In this document: positions 438-18,395 of the stretch, in pieces
Layout: every line of letters starts with the position of its first letter
Position numbering within the stretch: position 1 is the stretch's first letter
Source of the DNA: a virus
DNA: 30,923 bases
Strand: one strand, 5' to 3'
IMG/VR virus record: IMGVR_UViG_3300008459_000236
Location: 1-30,923 of that record
The notes under the pieces: model-generated
Told to the model about the DNA's origin: nothing
The model's input: the letters and a program-made list of their open reading frames with translations, nothing else
The model's database searches: none
Made by a program: the position numbers and the translations under genes

Positions 438-1067
438 ATGGATATAATGGAAATTGTTAGATTGATCGTAACTTCCATCACCTCAATCATTGCCGCACTC
501 ATAACGGCTGGATTTTTTAAAAGTTGGTGGGAAAAACAATCGGTCTTCAAATCAAGAAAAAAGCTCGTTGGCCAAATAGAATCAGATACGCTAGTTTATC
601 AAACAATCAAACAACTAAAACACGATTATTATTGTGATCGTGTGTATATTATACAATTCCATAACGGAGACAATTTTTATACAGAATCTCCAATTCAAAA
701 AGCATCAGCAACATTTGAAGTATGTTCAACAGGACTTGAAAGGGTTTCGGATAAGTTTCAAAATGTTTTGGTGAGTCATTATTCTTGGTATATAAATGAA
801 GCCATCAAAAAACAAATGTATTTTTATAATATAGAAGATGTTGATGATGCAACGACAAAATCACTTTTACATTACAGAGGTGCTCAGTCTCACTGCGGTG
901 TTCCACTTTATGATGATAGAAAACATTTGGTGGGTTTATTCTGTGTGGATTGGGTGTTTACAGAAGTTCCTGACAATTTCTTAACAAACAATGAATTTAC
1001 AGATGAGTATAAAGAAAACTTTTTTATTCAGGCGAATTCTTTGGTCAAATTAATTAAAACAAATTAA
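438..1067 (+). CDS. Membrane-anchored GAF-like domain protein
   Basis: The start is placed at ATG 438 (MDIMEIVRL) because the longer frame needs a TTG inside the promoter motif. This gives 209 residues. Residues about 4-25 form one hydrophobic helix (VTSITSIIAALITAGFF) followed by WW and basic residues, as in an inner-membrane anchor with a cytoplasmic domain. The rest contains VYIIQFHNGDNF, a mid segment ending RGAQSHCGVPLYDD, and HLVGLFCVDW. Such elements recall GAF/PAS sensor folds (strand, variable loop, CGVP turn, GLFCVDW strand). What it might sense or bind cannot be told. Its stop overlaps the convergent downstream gene at TTAA. The GAF assignment is moderate. Confidence 0.6.
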   Translation: MDIMEIVRLIVTSITSIIAALITAGFFKSWWEKQSVFKSRKKLVGQIESDTLVYQTIKQLKHDYYCDRVYIIQFHNGDNFYTESPIQKASATFEVCSTGLERVSDKFQNVLVSHYSWYINEAIKKQMYFYNIEDVDDATTKSLLHYRGAQSHCGVPLYDDRKHLVGLFCVDWVFTEVPDNFLTNNEFTDEYKENFFIQANSLVKLIKTN

Positions 1068-1870
1068 TTTAAGAATCGGTATCTAAGCACTTGTAACTCA
1101 CCGTTACTACTTTCAATACTTGATGAGAAGTGAGAAAGATCAACATCTTCTAAATCATCAACTTTATTTATATAAGTAGATCCTCTAAATCGTTGATCGA
1201 TATCAAAATCAGAATCACTTATAGTTTCTGGTTCTTTTTCATCAATAAATATTCTAAAAGTATTTGGTGAGTCAAGTATGTAGCTTTCATCAATTTCTTC
1301 ATTTGAGTCTCTGTGTTTGTAAACATAATCAAATACCGAAGTATTATAACTCACATATTCAGAAATTACATATTTTGTCAAATCATTAAATTGTATAGAT
1401 CCCGTTCCATCACAATACTGGCATTCATCACTCCCAGCACCATCACAATGACTACAAGTTTCACGACCTTCACCATCACAATTGTTACACGATTCTTCGT
1501 CTTCACTATCGGGATCTATTCCTGATCCGTCACATTCATCGCAGTTATAATCGCCACTTCCATTACAATAATCACAAGTTATTGTTCCGTCACCACCACA
1601 TTCATCACATCCTTTTTCTATTTCGTCTTCGGAAAAATATACAGAAGAGAATACAAATAAAAATGAATTTATGGTTTGAAGTTCTTTATTTGGATCTTTA
1701 CCATCATTTATTGCTTTGGTTAGAAAAACAATTTTAACGAAATCAAGAGCTGGAATTTTTTTAATAAAAGTTCTAACCAAATTATTTGTCATATAGTCTC
1801 CGTAAATCTTTTGTAATGACTTTGACTTTGTATTTACGGACAAACTTTTTGCAATCCCAACTAAATTCAT
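1064..1870 (-). CDS. DnaJ-type cysteine-rich zinc-finger protein without J domain
   Basis: Residues about 88-157 hold six CxxCxGxG repeats (CDECGGDG, CDYCNGSG, CDECDGSG, CNNCDGEG, CSHCDGAG, CQYCDGTG), the zinc-binding signature of the DnaJ/Hsp40 central domain, which normally has four. No HPD-bearing J domain is present, so it is not a standard DnaJ. The N-terminal 85 residues are helical and the C-terminal 110 are acidic. I start at ATG 1870 (MNLVGIAKSL, 268 aa): the longer frame from 1903 would begin inside the hairpin that terminates the tmRNA, and an ATATTTAT motif lies just before 1870. Likely role: zinc-dependent protein binding, perhaps chaperone-like. The substrate is unknown. Confidence 0.7.
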   Translation of the reverse strand: MNLVGIAKSLSVNTKSKSLQKIYGDYMTNNLVRTFIKKIPALDFVKIVFLTKAINDGKDPNKELQTINSFLFVFSSVYFSEDEIEKGCDECGGDGTITCDYCNGSGDYNCDECDGSGIDPDSEDEESCNNCDGEGRETCSHCDGAGSDECQYCDGTGSIQFNDLTKYVISEYVSYNTSVFDYVYKHRDSNEEIDESYILDSPNTFRIFIDEKEPETISDSDFDIDQRFRGSTYINKVDDLEDVDLSHFSSSIESSNGELQVLRYRFLN

Positions 1871-1892
1871 ATCGATAAATATATTATAAGTT

Positions 1893-1924
1893 AAAAAACC
1901 CACCTATAAAAGATGGGTTTTTTT
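1893..1924 (-). terminator. Rho-independent terminator after tmRNA (bidirectional look)
   Basis: AAAAAACCCA and TGGGTTTTTTT form a 10-bp stem around an 11-base loop, with a T-tract on either strand. On the minus strand it starts about two bases after the encoded CCA of the tmRNA, as expected for the end of its transcript. Confidence 0.8.
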
Positions 1925-1925
1925 G

Positions 1926-2319
1926 TGGTGGAGACGCGGGGTTCCGCCCCCCGGTCTTGCTCATTTCGAATACAAAAGACTACACGCTTAGGTCAATATT
2001 GGTTCTCAATATTCCGAAATATTTCGTTTTAATTTTTCCATCAAAACGAATAAAAGTGGAGGATTCACTTCTACTGGGGTAGAACCCTGAACGGAACCCA
2101 CGATACTACGACTTCTGTTGCTAGGTTAGTGTCTGCCGACCCCTTAGTAAAGTAACTATTAAGCTACTGTTACACCTTCAGTGCGGACGAGTCCGAGAGT
2201 CTGAAGTTTTGCGAAAGTTTCGCCATTTAAAGTTTTGTCTCCGTGTATTAGAGTGATAGGAAACCTCTCACTGCGTGCCTTCTATACTTGATAACGCCAA
2301 TCGATACTATGTCGTCCCC
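1926..2319 (-). ncRNA. ssrA: Phage-encoded tmRNA (transfer-messenger RNA)
   Basis: tmRNA rescues stalled ribosomes by acting as tRNA-Ala and then as a short mRNA for a degradation tag. The minus-strand RNA starts GGGGACG (2319) and ends CGTCTCC-A-CCA (1936-1926); these pair over 7 bp with one G.U, and CCA is encoded. A 5-bp CGGGG/CCCCG stem sits where the T arm belongs. P2 is supported by CACGC/GCGTG and TATAGAAG/CTTTTGTA. Pseudoknot PK1 is clear: AGTGA/TCACT with loop GUUUCC pairing downstream GGAGAC, ending just before the resume region (TTTAAATGGCGAA). The tag frame GGC...GCT TAA TAG (2224-2156) ends in the loop of P5 (GTAAC/GTTAC). An AAAACG hairpin and further stems follow, as in the 3' pseudoknots. 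Length 394 is normal. Odd points are the T loop (GGCGGAA), a long tag frame and its hairpins. Confidence 0.93.
2156..2224 (-). other. tmRNA tag reading frame with tandem stops
   Basis: Reading GGC as the resume codon gives 21 residues that start GETFAK and end EGVTVA, then TAA TAG. The GE start matches Bacteroidota tags of the GENNYALAA type and the double stop in the P5 loop is typical. If GCG is the resume codon instead, the frame is AKLSQNF...SALKV followed by TAA at 2173-2171. I favour the first frame. The region also folds on itself: GCGAAA/TTTCGC (2211-2223) and CTTCAG/CTGAAG enclosing CGGAC/GTCCG (2176-2206). Confidence 0.65.
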
Positions 2320-2328
2320 GTATGAATG

Positions 2329-2359
2329 TAAATATAATAAAACTAATCTAATCTATCAA
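2329..2359 (-). promoter_or_regulatory. Bacteroidota-like promoter for tmRNA
   Basis: On the minus strand TTG (2359-2357), a 20-base spacer and TATATTTA (2336-2329) precede the tmRNA 5' end by nine bases. This is close to the Bacteroidota consensus TTTG, 19-21 bases, TAnnTTTG; the last G is A here. Confidence 0.55.
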
Positions 2360-4663: not shown

Positions 4664-4695
4664 TTTGTATAATTAAAACTTTTGTTATATCTTTG
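4664..4695 (+). promoter_or_regulatory. Host-type promoter that may give a leaderless mRNA
   Basis: TTTG (4664-4667), a 20-base spacer and TATCTTTG (4688-4695) fit the Bacteroidota consensus. The ATG of the peptidase gene is at 4700, only four bases after the -7 element, so the transcript should start at or very near the start codon. Confidence 0.65.
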
Positions 4696-4699
4696 TGGA

Positions 4700-5527
4700 A
4701 TGGAAAGAAATTATCAACTACTCAAAGATGTCCTGTCGGTTCCAACCAAAACTTACAAGGAAGAAAAAATGGTTCAATTTATTTGTGATTGGTTAACCCA
4801 AAACAATATACCATTTTATAAGGATCAATTCAATAATGTATATGCAACCAAATCAGAAACTGAAGTTGGTGATGGATTCTTTTTTCCTTGTGTGGTTTCT
4901 CATACTGATACTGTTCACAATCTTGACACAATAAATATTGCTGAGGAATATCTTCCAAACGCACAAAAGGAGGTTAAATTGTCATTAAAAGCTTATAATG
5001 ATAACGGAGACCCAACAGGTATTGGTGGAGATGATAAATGTGGTGTTTATGGTTGTTTGGAACTTTTGAAAGAACTTCCACATTTAAAAGCGGCTTTCTT
5101 TGTGTCAGAAGAGACAGGTTGTCACGGATCCAAAAAAGCTGATCCCGAATTTTTCAAAAATGTTGGATACGCAATTCAATTTGATGCCCCTGAGAATTGG
5201 ATGGTTACAGAATATTGTATGGGTGTTTCCCTTTTTGACGCCAAAAGTGATTTCTATGATAAGTGTGAAAATATATTGGTTGAAAACTTTAACGAAGATC
5301 TAAGGTTTATGAAACATCCCTATACTGATGTTTACGCTTTAAAAGCCAAATTCGATTTTTCTTGTATCAATATATCAATCGGATATTATCAATATCATAC
5401 AAGAAACGAATATGTGGTTGTTGAAGATGTTTACAATGGAATCGAAACAGGAAAAAAGATGATTGAATCTTTGGGATATAAAAAGTATGAGTATAAATTA
5501 AAAGAGGACAAATACTTTTTACTTTAA
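4700..5527 (+). CDS. M20-type zinc peptidase (PepT/aminoacylase-like)
   Basis: M20 enzymes are two-zinc exopeptidases that trim short peptides or acylated amino acids. The expected ligand set is visible in 275 residues: H68 and D70 (VSHTDTV), bridging D111 (GIGGDDKCG), catalytic E137 with E138 (VSEETG), D162 (FDAPE) and a last His, H233 (YYQYHTRNEY). The protein is shorter than stand-alone M20 peptidases (usually 350-450), so the dimerisation (lid) domain seems reduced to a short stretch at about 175-220. I start at ATG 4700 (MERNYQ) because the longer frame begins at TTG inside the promoter. Its stop overlaps the convergent metallopeptidase gene. It may recycle peptides made by the unfoldase/protease system, or process a defined substrate. 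Confidence 0.82.
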   Translation: MERNYQLLKDVLSVPTKTYKEEKMVQFICDWLTQNNIPFYKDQFNNVYATKSETEVGDGFFFPCVVSHTDTVHNLDTINIAEEYLPNAQKEVKLSLKAYNDNGDPTGIGGDDKCGVYGCLELLKELPHLKAAFFVSEETGCHGSKKADPEFFKNVGYAIQFDAPENWMVTEYCMGVSLFDAKSDFYDKCENILVENFNEDLRFMKHPYTDVYALKAKFDFSCINISIGYYQYHTRNEYVVVEDVYNGIETGKKMIESLGYKKYEYKLKEDKYFLL

Positions 5528-6138
5528 AAAAAGTCTTCCAATTTATCCATAATTTTTTTAACAATAGGTAAGTCAGAAACATCTACCTTTTCTCCATCAG
5601 GTAAAGATTTCTTTATTTCTAATACCTGATTGAAAAGTGGAAATGTTGCCCCCTTGATCATTCGAGACATAGTTGGATAGTTCTCAATATAATTTCCGAT
5701 CTTAAAGTGTTTGTTTTTTTCTTGTTCAGATAAATTCAAAATGGAAACAATATAATTTGTTCTTTCTTTGGCAAATTCATCTGCATCCATCTCGAGATCC
5801 CAATAAAGTTCAAAAAAATTTTCAAAGTCTTCAAAATCGCCAGATAGAGGATTTTGTTTTTTTAATCTACTAATCTGAATTTCGTGTCTAATTTCGTGGA
5901 ATATTACATATACAAAGTCGGCTATTGTATGAAACTTTTGTGGTGAACAAATAATGACAAAATTTCTTGTTCTTACACCTGAAAATCCTGCAGAACAAGA
6001 ATTGTAAAACTTTACAACAAAACCATTTTCACTTACAAATTTTTTTATGAATGTCGAAATTTTGTCTATTTCAATTTTTACATTATCTGGAACTTCAGAT
6101 TTAAATTTTTCCATCAATATGTCAAAATTGGATTTCAT
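5524..6138 (-). CDS. HExxH metallopeptidase (ImmA/IrrE-like)
   Basis: The 204-residue protein has the zinc-peptidase signature H81-E82-I-R-H85 (VIFHEIRHEIQ). A downstream acidic helix follows (WDLEMDADEFAKERT; E116, D120) that could supply the third ligand, in the layout of ImmA/IrrE-type peptidases (HExxH then E-x-x-AD/AN-x-FA). ImmA-type enzymes cleave repressors and other regulators, so removal of a host regulator is possible, but no DNA-binding domain is attached and the substrate is unknown. It lies directly downstream of the ClpC-like gene on the same strand (24-base gap containing a hairpin), so both may belong to one proteolysis unit. Confidence 0.72.
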   Translation of the reverse strand: MKSNFDILMEKFKSEVPDNVKIEIDKISTFIKKFVSENGFVVKFYNSCSAGFSGVRTRNFVIICSPQKFHTIADFVYVIFHEIRHEIQISRLKKQNPLSGDFEDFENFFELYWDLEMDADEFAKERTNYIVSILNLSEQEKNKHFKIGNYIENYPTMSRMIKGATFPLFNQVLEIKKSLPDGEKVDVSDLPIVKKIMDKLEDFF

Positions 6139-6151: not shown

Positions 6152-6178
6152 TAAAGGGGGAACTATTCCCCCTTTTTC
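6151..6178 (-). terminator. Hairpin containing the stop codon of the ClpC-like gene
   Basis: On the minus strand AAAGGGGGAA-TAG-TTCCCCCTTT forms a 10-bp stem whose loop is the TAG stop of the ClpC-like gene. On the plus strand it ends in TTTTT and could terminate incoming transcription; on the minus strand the T-tract is only three bases, so it may attenuate or protect the 3' end rather than terminate. Confidence 0.5.
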
Positions 6179-8208
6179 TTTTTCGATTTTTTCTCTTTCT
6201 GTTTTTCCAAGACCAATTTGTCCTCATCACATTTTATGTGGTAACTTTCTCCGACAATCAAATTTGATTTAAGGATCTCTTCAGATATGAAATCTTCTAC
6301 CTTATCTTGAATTGCCCTTTTAAGTGGTCTTGCTCCGTATGTGTCATCAATACCAGCTTTTGATATTAATTCCACCAAAGACTCATCATATGAAATATTG
6401 TATTTGAGTTCTTTGATCCTATTGAACAATTTCTCAAGTTCGATCTTTACAATTTCTTTCACATTACTGTCACTGAGAGTATTAAAGATAATTGTATCAT
6501 CAATACGATTTAAGAATTCGGGGGCAAAAAACTTTTTAAGTTCTTTATTCAATATATCCTTTTTCATTTCTTCTTGAATATATTCATTACTTGATGATGA
6601 GAATCCCATACCTGTTCCGAAGTCTTGAATCTTTTTAACACCAAGATTTGATGTCATAATAATCAAACAATTCTTAAAGTTAATTTTTCTTCCCAAACTA
6701 TCAGTAATATGTCCTTCGTCTAAGATTTGAAGTAAAAGTGAGAAAATATCTTTGTGCGCCTTTTCAATTTCATCAAATAAAACCAAAGAGTAAGGTTTAT
6801 TTTTAACTTGTTCAGTTAATTGACCACCTTCTTCATAACCAACATAACCTGGTGAAGATCCTATAAGTCTTGTCATACTAATTTTCTCTTGGTATTCAGA
6901 CATATCAACTCTAATCAAAGCCTCTTCACTACCAAAGATTTCTTTAGCCAATTGTTTTGCCAAATGGGTTTTACCGACACCAGTACTACCCAAGAATATG
7001 AAAGATCCAATCGGTCTCTTCGGGTCTTTAATACCCAACCTATTCCTTCTGATTGATTTTGAAATTTTGGTAACTGCGGCTTCTTGCCCAATAACACTTT
7101 TGTTCAAAACATTTTCCAAATCAATTAAAGACTTTGTGTCGTCGATTGTAAGTTTTGAAACAGGAATTTTGGTCATATTGGAAACCACTTCATATACCAA
7201 ATCAATCGGAACATCTTTTCTATTTAATAATAGTTCCTTCTCAAACTTCTTTTTTTCGTCTTCAAGTTTTGCCAAGATTTTCTTCTCCTTGTCTCGTAGT
7301 TCAGCCGCTTGTTCAAAATTTTGTCTTTTAACAACTTCTAACTTTTCTTTTTTTACATCAGAGGCTTGAGTTTTAAGATCCTCAATAATATCAGGTATTT
7401 TAATCTCAACTTGACATCTTGCGCCAACTTCATCCATAATATCAAAAGCTTTGTCAGGAAATTCTCTATCGGTTATATACCTGTCGGCCAATTCAACACA
7501 AGATATCAATACTTCTTCACTATAATTTACTTTGTGATACTCTTCGTATTTAATTTTTGATTGTTTTAAAATTTCTAAGGTTTCGGACTTTGATGAACCA
7601 TCAATTACAACCTTTTGAAACCTTCTTTCTAATGCTCCATCTTTTTCAAAGTTTTTACGATATTCGTCTAAGGTTGTTGCTCCGATGCATTGAATTTCGC
7701 CACGAGCCAAAGCAGGTTTAAAGATGTTAGATGCATCTAACGAACCAGATGAATTACCAGCCCCTACAATGGTATGAATCTCATCAATGAAAACGATAGT
7801 ATTGGGATTTGCTTGTAACTCTTCAATGATAACTTTCATCCTTTCTTCGAACTGACCCCTATATTTGGTTCCGGCAACAATTGAAGTCATATCCAAAGAC
7901 AGGATCCTTTTGTCCAAAAGATTTCTTGGGCAATCTCCTTCAAATATCTTCATTGCCAAACCCTCAACAATACTTGTTTTACCACTACCGGCGCCACCTA
8001 AGATTATTGGGTTATTCTTTTTTCTTCGAGATAAAATTTGGGCAATTCTGATAATTTCTTTTTCCCTACCAATTACAGGGTCTATTTTTCCTTGTTCTGC
8101 GAGTTTGATCAGATCCCTTGAAAAATTATCCAACACGGGTGTTGGGGAATCTGTGGTTTTTTGTTTGTTTTCTTTAGGTGAGTCGTTATCAAAATGTTCG
8201 GTCATCAT
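6163..8208 (-). CDS. clpC: ClpC/ClpA-type AAA+ unfoldase lacking the N-domain
   Basis: A two-ring AAA+ unfoldase of 681 residues. D1 has Walker A GGAGSGKT (71-78) and Walker B IVFIDE (138-143). A UVR-like coiled segment (KRQNFEQAAELRDKEKK, about 294-310) marks it as ClpC rather than ClpA or ClpB. D2 has Walker A GSTGVGKT (407-414), Walker B SLVLFDE (474-480) and sensor region IMTSN. The loop FGTGMGF (530-536) matches the ClpP-docking loop of Bacteroidota ClpC, so it probably feeds host ClpP. The roughly 150-residue N-terminal adaptor/substrate domain is missing and replaced by a short polar tail, which should change substrate choice. The start could be either of the two leading Met codons. 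It was probably acquired from a Bacteroidota host. Confidence 0.93.
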   Translation of the reverse strand: MMTEHFDNDSPKENKQKTTDSPTPVLDNFSRDLIKLAEQGKIDPVIGREKEIIRIAQILSRRKKNNPIILGGAGSGKTSIVEGLAMKIFEGDCPRNLLDKRILSLDMTSIVAGTKYRGQFEERMKVIIEELQANPNTIVFIDEIHTIVGAGNSSGSLDASNIFKPALARGEIQCIGATTLDEYRKNFEKDGALERRFQKVVIDGSSKSETLEILKQSKIKYEEYHKVNYSEEVLISCVELADRYITDREFPDKAFDIMDEVGARCQVEIKIPDIIEDLKTQASDVKKEKLEVVKRQNFEQAAELRDKEKKILAKLEDEKKKFEKELLLNRKDVPIDLVYEVVSNMTKIPVSKLTIDDTKSLIDLENVLNKSVIGQEAAVTKISKSIRRNRLGIKDPKRPIGSFIFLGSTGVGKTHLAKQLAKEIFGSEEALIRVDMSEYQEKISMTRLIGSSPGYVGYEEGGQLTEQVKNKPYSLVLFDEIEKAHKDIFSLLLQILDEGHITDSLGRKINFKNCLIIMTSNLGVKKIQDFGTGMGFSSSSNEYIQEEMKKDILNKELKKFFAPEFLNRIDDTIIFNTLSDSNVKEIVKIELEKLFNRIKELKYNISYDESLVELISKAGIDDTYGARPLKRAIQDKVEDFISEEILKSNLIVGESYHIKCDEDKLVLEKQKEKKSKKKKGE

Positions 8209-16571: not shown

Positions 16572-18395
16572 ATGGAAAATAACGACAAAAATTTAACGGT
16601 TTGGCAAAGATTATCGAGAGCTTTTGGACCTAACTCTCTACTTAATCAAGACTATCCTGTTTATAAATTCGATAAAACCGAATTACTTAAAACAACAAGT
16701 AAACCGGAATACGAAAAGGAAAAGTTACAAGCACAACAAACTTTATATATTGCAAACCAGTGGACAAAGATCGAAAACAATCTTTATACACAAGCGGTAT
16801 ACTATGAACCAACAAGGTTAGCGTCTTTTTATGATTTTGAAAGTATGGAGTTTACTCCCGAGATATCCGCAGCTTTAGATATATTCGCAGAAGAATCCAC
16901 AACACCAAATGAAGATGGATTTATGTTACAAATCTACTCTGAATCAAAAAGAATAAAAGCTGTTTTGGCGGATTTGTTTAACAATAAATTAGATATTAAT
17001 ACAAATCTCCCAATGTGGACAAGAAACACCTGTAAGTATGGTGATAATTTTGTCTTTTTAAAACTTGACCCTGAAAAAGGAATTGTGGGTTGTATGCAAT
17101 TACCAAACATTGAAATTGAAAGATTGGAAAGAGGTATGGGTGCAAGAGCGGCAAAAATGGAAGAAGATCCAAAAAATAGAGGATTGAAATTTTTGTGGAA
17201 ACAAAAAGATATGGAATTTCATACTTGGGAAATGGCGCATTTTAGATTATTGGGTGACGATAGAAAATTACCATATGGAACATCTATATTAGAAAAAGCG
17301 AGAAGAATTTGGAAACAACTATTATTAGCGGAAGATGCTATGTTGATTTACAGAACATCAAGAGCTCCTGAGAGAAGAATTTTTAAAGTTTTTGTTGGTA
17401 ATATGGATGATAAAGATGTTGAAGCGTATGTACAACGAGTTGCCAACAAATTTAAAAGAGATCAAACAACTGATCCAAAAACAGGTAATGTAGATTTGAG
17501 GTTCAATCAAATGGCTGTGGATCAGGACTACTTTATTCCTGTCAGAGATCCCGCAGCACCAAGTCCAATTGACACATTACCTGGAGCACAGAATTTATCA
17601 GAAATTGCGGATATTGAATATATACAAAAAAAATTATTAACAGCCATAAGAGTTCCAAAAGCGTTTTTGGGTTTTGAGGAAGTGGTTGGTGATGGAAAAA
17701 GTTTGGCGTTACAAGATATCAGATTTGCTCGAACTATTAATAAAATACAAAATAGTATGTTACAAGAATTGAATAAGATTGCAATTATTCATTTGTTTTT
17801 ATTAGGGTTTGAGGACGAGTTAGATAACTTCACATTGTCTTTGACTAATCCATCATCTCAGGCAGATCTTTTGAAGATCGATGTTTGGAAAGAAAAAATG
17901 TTGTTGTATAAAGATGCTGTAACACCAATAGAGAATCTTGCTCCTGTATCCGCTTCTTGGGCGAAGAAACATATTTTAGGATTCTCTGATGATGAAATAA
18001 AACTTGATATCCAACAACAAAGAATTGAAAGAGCGGTCGCCAAAGAATTGGAATTGACTCCTGAGATTATTAAGAAAACAGGTCTATTTGATAATATTGA
18101 TAGAATATATGGTAAGATTACAGGAACTACCGAAGGTGTTACTGCAACCCCACCTGAACCTCCGATGGGTGGTGAAATGCCAGGTATGGAACCTCCGATG
18201 GGTGGTGAAGCTCCTCCTGCAGGGGGTGAATCACCACCTGAAGCGGGTGTTACTCCCGAATCTATTAAAGATGATAATGTCAATATACTATTAGAAAAAG
18301 ACGAACATAATCAAGAAAAGTATTTAAATCTTACCAAAGCAAAAAAGTCTATGGGTGAAATTGAACAAGAGTTGAAAAAACTGTTGGGGGATTGA
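16572..18395 (+). CDS. gp20: Portal protein (T4 gp20 type)
   Basis: The 607-residue product has portal hallmarks of the T4 superfamily: an N-terminal wing starting NNDKNLTVWQRLSRAFG, FEFTP-like SMEFTPEISAALDIFAEES (around 95-112), GDNFVFLKL, a clip/stem region with RVPKAFLGFEEVVGDGKSLALQDIRFARTI (split here across the crown helices), and a long helical end. The portal forms the dodecameric DNA gate at one head vertex and docks the terminase encoded just upstream. Residues about 515-555 are a low-complexity Pro/Gly/Met linker (PPMGGEMPGMEPPMGGE) before a short C-terminal helix. Its TGA stop lies inside the promoter motif of the next gene. Confidence 0.93.
   Translation: MENNDKNLTVWQRLSRAFGPNSLLNQDYPVYKFDKTELLKTTSKPEYEKEKLQAQQTLYIANQWTKIENNLYTQAVYYEPTRLASFYDFESMEFTPEISAALDIFAEESTTPNEDGFMLQIYSESKRIKAVLADLFNNKLDINTNLPMWTRNTCKYGDNFVFLKLDPEKGIVGCMQLPNIEIERLERGMGARAAKMEEDPKNRGLKFLWKQKDMEFHTWEMAHFRLLGDDRKLPYGTSILEKARRIWKQLLLAEDAMLIYRTSRAPERRIFKVFVGNMDDKDVEAYVQRVANKFKRDQTTDPKTGNVDLRFNQMAVDQDYFIPVRDPAAPSPIDTLPGAQNLSEIADIEYIQKKLLTAIRVPKAFLGFEEVVGDGKSLALQDIRFARTINKIQNSMLQELNKIAIIHLFLLGFEDELDNFTLSLTNPSSQADLLKIDVWKEKMLLYKDAVTPIENLAPVSASWAKKHILGFSDDEIKLDIQQQRIERAVAKELELTPEIIKKTGLFDNIDRIYGKITGTTEGVTATPPEPPMGGEMPGMEPPMGGEAPPAGGESPPEAGVTPESIKDDNVNILLEKDEHNQEKYLNLTKAKKSMGEIEQELKKLLGD

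Follow-up and report, generated by a model that had tools for sequence, protein, structure and literature searches.

A conserved non-host tmRNA tag beside Clp and peptidase genes in a lineage of large T4-like phages

Introduction

Why some phages carry a tmRNA is an open question, and the locus considered here raises it in a form that can be tested, as a conserved tag which is not that of the host lies beside genes for a Clp unfoldase and a peptidase. Is the RNA functional, and what might its tag be for? The locus lies within an IMG/VR virus record of 30,923 nt (30.9 kb; the window, meaning the whole stretch that was analysed), which is part of the genome of a large, T4-like phage whose portal, major capsid protein and prohead protease are of T4 type. 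Relatives chosen by their terminase reach 295 kb; a search by terminase gave no close cultured relative, the best having 27% identity (Flavobacterium phage immuto, Microcystis phage).

Results

Identity and structure of the tmRNA

A complete ssrA-type tmRNA had been proposed in a first-pass annotation and was upheld by the Rfam covariance model: RF00023 (gathering score 47 bits) matched over its full length (model 1-374) at window 2319-1926 on the minus strand with 61.0 bits (E 1.1e-21), the ends of the match being 1926 and 2319 exactly as proposed. The features of the RNA, with the evidence for each, are as follows.

1926..2319, minus strand: one-piece ssrA-type tmRNA, 394 nt, with encoded CCA (Rfam RF00023; structure; relatives)
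2313..2319, minus strand: acceptor stem, 5' strand GGGGACG, third pair G-U, the alanine identity (Rfam; sequence)
1926..1936, minus strand: acceptor stem, 3' strand CGUCUCC, and ACCA end (Rfam; sequence)
1937..1953, minus strand: T-arm CGGGG-GGCGGAA-CCCCG, with an unusual T-loop (Rfam; sequence)
2237..2272, minus strand: pseudoknot PK1, AGUGA/UCACU and GUUUCC/GGAGAC (inspection; pseudoknot score of relatives)
2162..2224, minus strand: tag frame GETFAKLQTLGLVRTEGVTVA, resume codon GGC, A at -4 (sequence; alignment of 120 tmRNAs)
2159..2161, minus strand: tag stop codon TAA (sequence)

A 7-bp acceptor stem with G3-U70 and an encoded CCA are present, as are PK1 ahead of the resume codon, the A at -4, an open frame and its stop. 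The conserved 3' CTAAGCGTGTAG strand is visible, and the folding z-score against shuffles is -2.57. The canonical T-loop UUCRANY is not found in the window tmRNA, which has GGCGGAA instead. The form GGCRGNA also occurs in alphaproteobacterial-type permuted phage tmRNAs (118 contigs), where ARAGORN called 60 of 114 loci; the canonical T-loop is thus typical of tmRNAs rather than defining, and the assignment stands. ARAGORN, which had been suggested as a further check, made no call on the window and none for 13 of 14 family members; the failure is a technical one, for which the T-loop GGCGGAA is the plausible cause in the case of the window. With one in 14 family tmRNAs found here, surveys based on this program undercount phage tmRNAs.

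It is very probable from these features that the window locus is a functional phage tmRNA. Alanine charging, SmpB binding and tagging would then follow from established tmRNA biology, and there are strong grounds to expect both ribosome rescue and tagging by the phage RNA; expression by the phage and a lytic life style are presumed.

Distribution in the phage lineage

The tmRNA had been placed in an accessory region, which proved wrong: its neighbourhood is conserved, and as judged from the genomes compared the tmRNA is a regular part of the genomes of these phages. The statement that phage tmRNAs are uncommon holds at large (402 of 18,146 phage genomes, ~2.3% by ARAGORN; PMC9004378) but not within the lineage, where 12 of 19 relatives picked by terminase carry a tmRNA above the Rfam cut-off and at least 120 loci were collected. 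As the RF00023 search of these 19 relatives overlooked the window itself and a near-identical locus, L081 (62.4 bits), absences from fragments in that search carry little weight. The more distant relatives score 64-136 bits.

The wider collection was made with a core pattern, GGTCGRN{8,14}CCTNGNAACAGAAG, which lies 3' of the tag and matched at least 120 stretches in viral contigs; a profile search of the collected loci then gave 120 distinct tmRNAs. Since the pattern avoids the tag, conservation of the tag is not built into the sample. In the alignment, 31 of 42 consensus pairs have changed on both sides with pairing retained. The third acceptor pair is GU in 24 and AU in two of 26 aligned tmRNAs, and the threshold of the pseudoknot score was reached by 102 of the 117 relatives scored, as against 13 of 117 shuffles. 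Most relatives have the T-loop UUCGANY and some the GGCRGNA type of the window. The two known copies of the window tmRNA differ at 2 of 394 positions, one change turning a G-U pair into G-C.

The tag peptide

The window tag, GETFAKLQTLGLVRTEGVTVA, has 21 residues and ends in VTVA; a nine-residue Bacteroidota-type tag ending in ALAA is not what the window encodes. Each of the 120 distinct tmRNAs has, at the homologous place, a frame which stays open for 20-24 codons up to a TAA, TAG or TGA stop; the A at -4 of the resume codon is likewise present in all 120. The gapless 21-mers (97 aligned; 76 distinct at the DNA level, 63 as peptides) give the consensus G-[NED]-[VT]-[LFYI]-x-K-[ML]-x-[TA]-[LIV]-G-L-[ILV]-[RA]-x-x-x-V-x-V-A, with G1, G11, L12 and A21 near-universal among the 63 and hydrophobic positions conserved. 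A C-terminal Ala is found in 60 of the 63, most ending in Val-Ala.

The tag is almost certainly selected as a peptide, on the evidence of its codon changes. Among 99 single-base codon changes counted in 34 disjoint, and hence independent, close pairs, 60 were synonymous and 39 non-synonymous (expected synonymous 27%; P 4e-12), and it is this excess in the tag frame which argues for selection on the peptide. Differences at codon positions 1, 2 and 3 numbered 54, 18 and 96, and the other two frames had no synonymous excess and contained stops in 70 and 72 of the 76 sequences. Two other descriptions of the region were rejected: an alternative frame starting GCG-AAA (AKLSQNFRLSDSSALKV), because it is the GGC frame which can be aligned across all relatives and which is under protein-level selection, and the treatment of the CUUCAG...CUGAAG hairpin as an insertion, as in the Rfam model, because the hairpin belongs to the long tag frame of this lineage. 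A second tag group, DEMSTMTFEDLMAFVGADYAVAA and similar, of 23-24 codons and likewise conserved, was seen at loci L110, L139, L160, L179, L182, L190 and L202.

Tags of Bacteroidota hosts are of the GENNYALAA type with nine residues (13 of 14 genomes, by ARAGORN), so the phage tag differs from them in length, body and end. This comparison favours the suggestion, made in the first-pass annotation, that the phage retags proteins for its own purposes. No tag-like stretch was found in 105,324 open frames of the collected loci or in PDB sequences, and no tag match in other phage or host proteins, one of these searches having run without a positive control. The stretch TLGLIR may resemble encapsulin cargo peptides.

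Expression signals and host

A promoter and a terminator of its own had been claimed for the tmRNA, and sites of both kinds were recovered: a promoter-like TTGATA-17-TATATT upstream, and a hairpin followed by U's directly after the CCA.

2331..2359, minus strand: promoter-like site TTGATA-17-TATATTTA, resembling the Bacteroidota form TTG...TANNTTTR (sequence; relatives)
1888..1925, minus strand: intrinsic terminator directly after the CCA (fold -16.1 kcal/mol, z -5.5)

The terminator stem has 13 bp. Upstream of the relatives' tmRNAs, TTG-N17-22-TANNTTTG, the form of the Bacteroidota housekeeping promoter, was found in 80 of 105 regions (0.65 in shuffles), and promoters of this type point to a Bacteroidota host for the T4-like phage. 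The -7 element of the window is TATATTTA and not TATATTTG.

Between promoter and tmRNA, GTTNTTTRA was found in 87 of 105 regions of relatives (2.7 in shuffles). As each of the two 16S genes of Draconibacterium is preceded, at 108 nt, by a shorter motif of this type, GTTCTTTAA, the phage motif looks like, and may be, the boxA element of rRNA leaders; if so, rRNA-type antitermination of the phage tmRNA is possible. The exact pattern was not found in the four Bacteroidota genomes searched, nor was a boxA-like leader found at 12 host tmRNA genes or upstream of the window tmRNA. Before most phage tmRNAs of the lineage the leader reads GTTCTTTGA, some 14-15 nt upstream of the start of the RNA.

Clp unfoldase, peptidase and other neighbours

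Two further genes of the window bear on what the tag may do.

6163..8208, minus strand: double AAA+ unfoldase of ClpC type, 681 aa, lacking the Clp N-domain and with GMGF as its D2 loop (ClpP docking) (profile; closest solved ClpC)
4682..5527, plus strand: M20 or peptidase-T-like metallopeptidase (Pfam, PHROG, neighbourhoods)

Walker motifs, pore loops and the ClpP-docking loop are all present in the window's Clp protein, which comprises two AAA+ modules, and the solved structure closest to the Clp protein of the lineage is ClpC. The window protein gave no Clp_N match; in nearly all of 31 Clp proteins some 40 residues precede D1. The docking loop [IVLM]GF is kept in all 31, with pore loops KYRG and GYVG. 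In a near-identical sister record (G001, 16671-18340) the Clp frame is in three pieces, unlike the intact 681 aa of the window, which may reflect a sequencing (frameshift) error or decay. The peptidase passes the M20 cut-off of Pfam (26.2 against 24.6 bits) and matches a PHROG peptidase with 127 bits; it scores below the cut-offs of the NCBIfam PepT models.

A Clp unfoldase occurs in 35 of 40 tmRNA-bearing records, one of the 40 (G024) having been chosen by a pattern match that is probably no tmRNA. In 35 of 36 cases the unfoldase gene is upstream of the tmRNA and shares its strand; the gap has a median of 2.7 kb and does not exceed 5 kb in 33 cases. A PepT-like gene adjoins the unfoldase gene in all 31 readable neighbourhoods. 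The three do not form one operon, as genes on both strands lie between them. ClpP was found in 13 of the 40 records, among them the 295-kb and 317-kb ones, and its catalytic Ser and His motifs are retained in all eight examined. Neither Clp nor ClpP was present in two of 39 tmRNA records, both fragments, and no SmpB was found in the 40.

Two other neighbours were noted in the window. Directly 3' of the tmRNA terminator (1064-1870, minus strand) lies a protein with DnaJ-like CxxCxGxG zinc-finger repeats, which has weak relatives in few of the related phages; between Clp and the peptidase (5524-6138, minus strand) lies an HExxH-type (HEIRHE) protein whose homologues adjoin Clp in four other records.

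Discussion

The reading we prefer, with somewhat better than even confidence, is that the phage tmRNA and its tag provide a phage-specific degron for a Clp pathway run by the phage together with the peptidase; for the link between tag and Clp by itself, our confidence is even. It is suggested by the hydrophobic-Ala end, which is conserved, by the Clp and peptidase genes linked to the tmRNA, and by the docking loop that the unfoldase has kept. Host AlaRS would charge the phage tmRNA with alanine and host SmpB would deliver it to stalled ribosomes, whereupon translation would switch to the 21-codon phage frame, the ribosome would be released and Ala-GETFAKLQTLGLVRTEGVTVA would be left on the nascent protein. 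The tag, as degron, would direct that protein to the N-domain-less ClpC-type unfoldase of the phage, whose partner would be ClpP of either phage or host. The peptidase-T-like neighbour would act on the products, helping to convert peptides to amino acids that serve virus production. Against this reading stands, besides the lack of an operon, the presence of Clp homologues in two huge phages, LR745206 and LR756502, for which Rfam gave no full tmRNA in the record and the lineage profile none near Clp, thus Clp has uses without this tmRNA; the synteny of Clp and tmRNA within one phage lineage may be due to descent.

It could be that the phage tmRNA does no more than top up host rescue capacity, its tag going to host ClpXP or other proteases and the body of the tag being unimportant. 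The predominant Val-Ala end, with Ala in 60 of 63 tags, resembles the host Leu-Ala-Ala, and alphaproteobacterial-type phage tmRNAs mostly keep ordinary -ALAA tags. However, the whole 21-residue body is under purifying selection, with Gly 11 invariant and the hydrophobic positions conserved, and the tag is unlike that of the host, such that we consider plain rescue rather unlikely. The loss of the host YALAA body and the motif-like conserved core xTLGLIR would also suit a tag which spares or redirects proteins, keeping them off host ClpXP or sending them to the virion or a phage structure. This is less probable again, as the absence of any similar stretch from the open frames and PDB sequences speaks against it and breakdown is what the conserved neighbours, an unfoldase and a peptidase, indicate.

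The two remaining alternatives question the RNA itself. That it functions in relatives and is degenerate in the window phage might be read from its 61 bits, below most relatives' Rfam scores, the T-loop GGCGGAA, the missing boxA-like leader, the weaker -7 element and the split Clp frame of the sister record. Against this, the window shares the constraint on the tag, its stems and PK1 are intact, its Clp is whole at 681 aa, and its two copies differ at only two positions, one of them a G-U to G-C change; the T-loop type is common among the tmRNAs of other phages and, recurring in relatives as well, is a variant in use rather than a sign of decay. We regard decay as very improbable. A decoy which titrates host SmpB and so blocks host trans-translation, the frame being irrelevant, has a precedent in the RNA of mycobacteriophage DS6A, which consists of a tRNA-like domain only, a similar molecule being known to inhibit tmRNA (PMC4131195), and a 112-nt RNA of this kind occurs in LR756508. 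Yet conservation extends to the resume site, the tag frame, its stop codon and the peptide, all of which would be superfluous for a decoy, and this reading is scarcely credible.

Returning to the degron pathway, over a hundred related phages with nearly the same tag, usually beside protein-destroying genes, suggest, at the level of their genomes, a private tag-and-recycle pathway. The bolder form, in which trans-translation would be orthogonal and a private 21-residue degron would be read only by the phage ClpC-type unfoldase, independently of host ssrA-ClpXP, is put forward tentatively. If it is true, the phage would use machinery of its own to degrade and recycle proteins from ribosomes stalled during takeover, and the degron reading would add a new pair of C-terminal degron and unfoldase for Bacteroidota. 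In the open-licence literature no report was found of this family of tags or of Clp and peptidase genes linked to it. Phage tmRNAs and phage Clp are already known; the tag type and its genomic context are new.

Comparison with known systems

The phage tmRNA is like that of Bacteroidota hosts in being in one piece, in its GGN resume codon and context, in G3-U70 and encoded CCA, and in a tag that starts G[EN]. It differs in that the host tag GENNYALAA has nine residues whereas the phage tag has 20-24, with a new conserved body and a Val-Ala end, and in that the host genes (n=12) have no boxA-like leader.

Ten phages with tmRNAs have been listed, including mycobacteriophages Bxz1 and Catera and Bacillus phage G (PMC4131195). 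Theirs are also complete and phage-borne, whereas those described here are one-piece and Bacteroidota-type, in large T4-like phages, with linkage to Clp and peptidase. The tmRNAs of OM43 phage Melnitz and roseophages MD18 / DSS3_MAL1 are permuted and in two pieces (PMC9004378), with short tags ending in -AA (ANTNAAPMEMAIAA in the roseophages), and related contigs have -ALAA tags. The roseophages do share with the window the T-loop GGCRGNA and an acceptor and T-arm stretch in which 29 of 31 nt are common (L082 2501-2531, L083 2501-2531, window 1926-1956), a likeness that would reflect either exchange between unrelated phages or convergence.

In huge phages, tmRNA has been reported as a translation factor, and tmRNA together with SmpB (PMC7162821); the parts of that report consulted give an ARAGORN listing, with no tag analysis or Clp linkage, and SmpB was not found in the present lineage. 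A full tmRNA whose frame, GVNNADYESAGFTAEDFAQMDGESLYHGSERKPAAV, runs to 36 codons (L486, LR756508.1 92434-92880) is encoded by one uncultured phage of 484 kb, together with a second RNA of 112 nt with the tRNA-like domain alone (L489, LR756508.1 414804-414915). Phage-encoded Clp ATPases and ClpP are known, as in Agrobacterium phage Atu_ph07 (PMC6102473; see also PMC7824862). Atu_ph07 is without a tmRNA (PMC11242549, Table 1), whereas in the present lineage Clp and tmRNA are found together.
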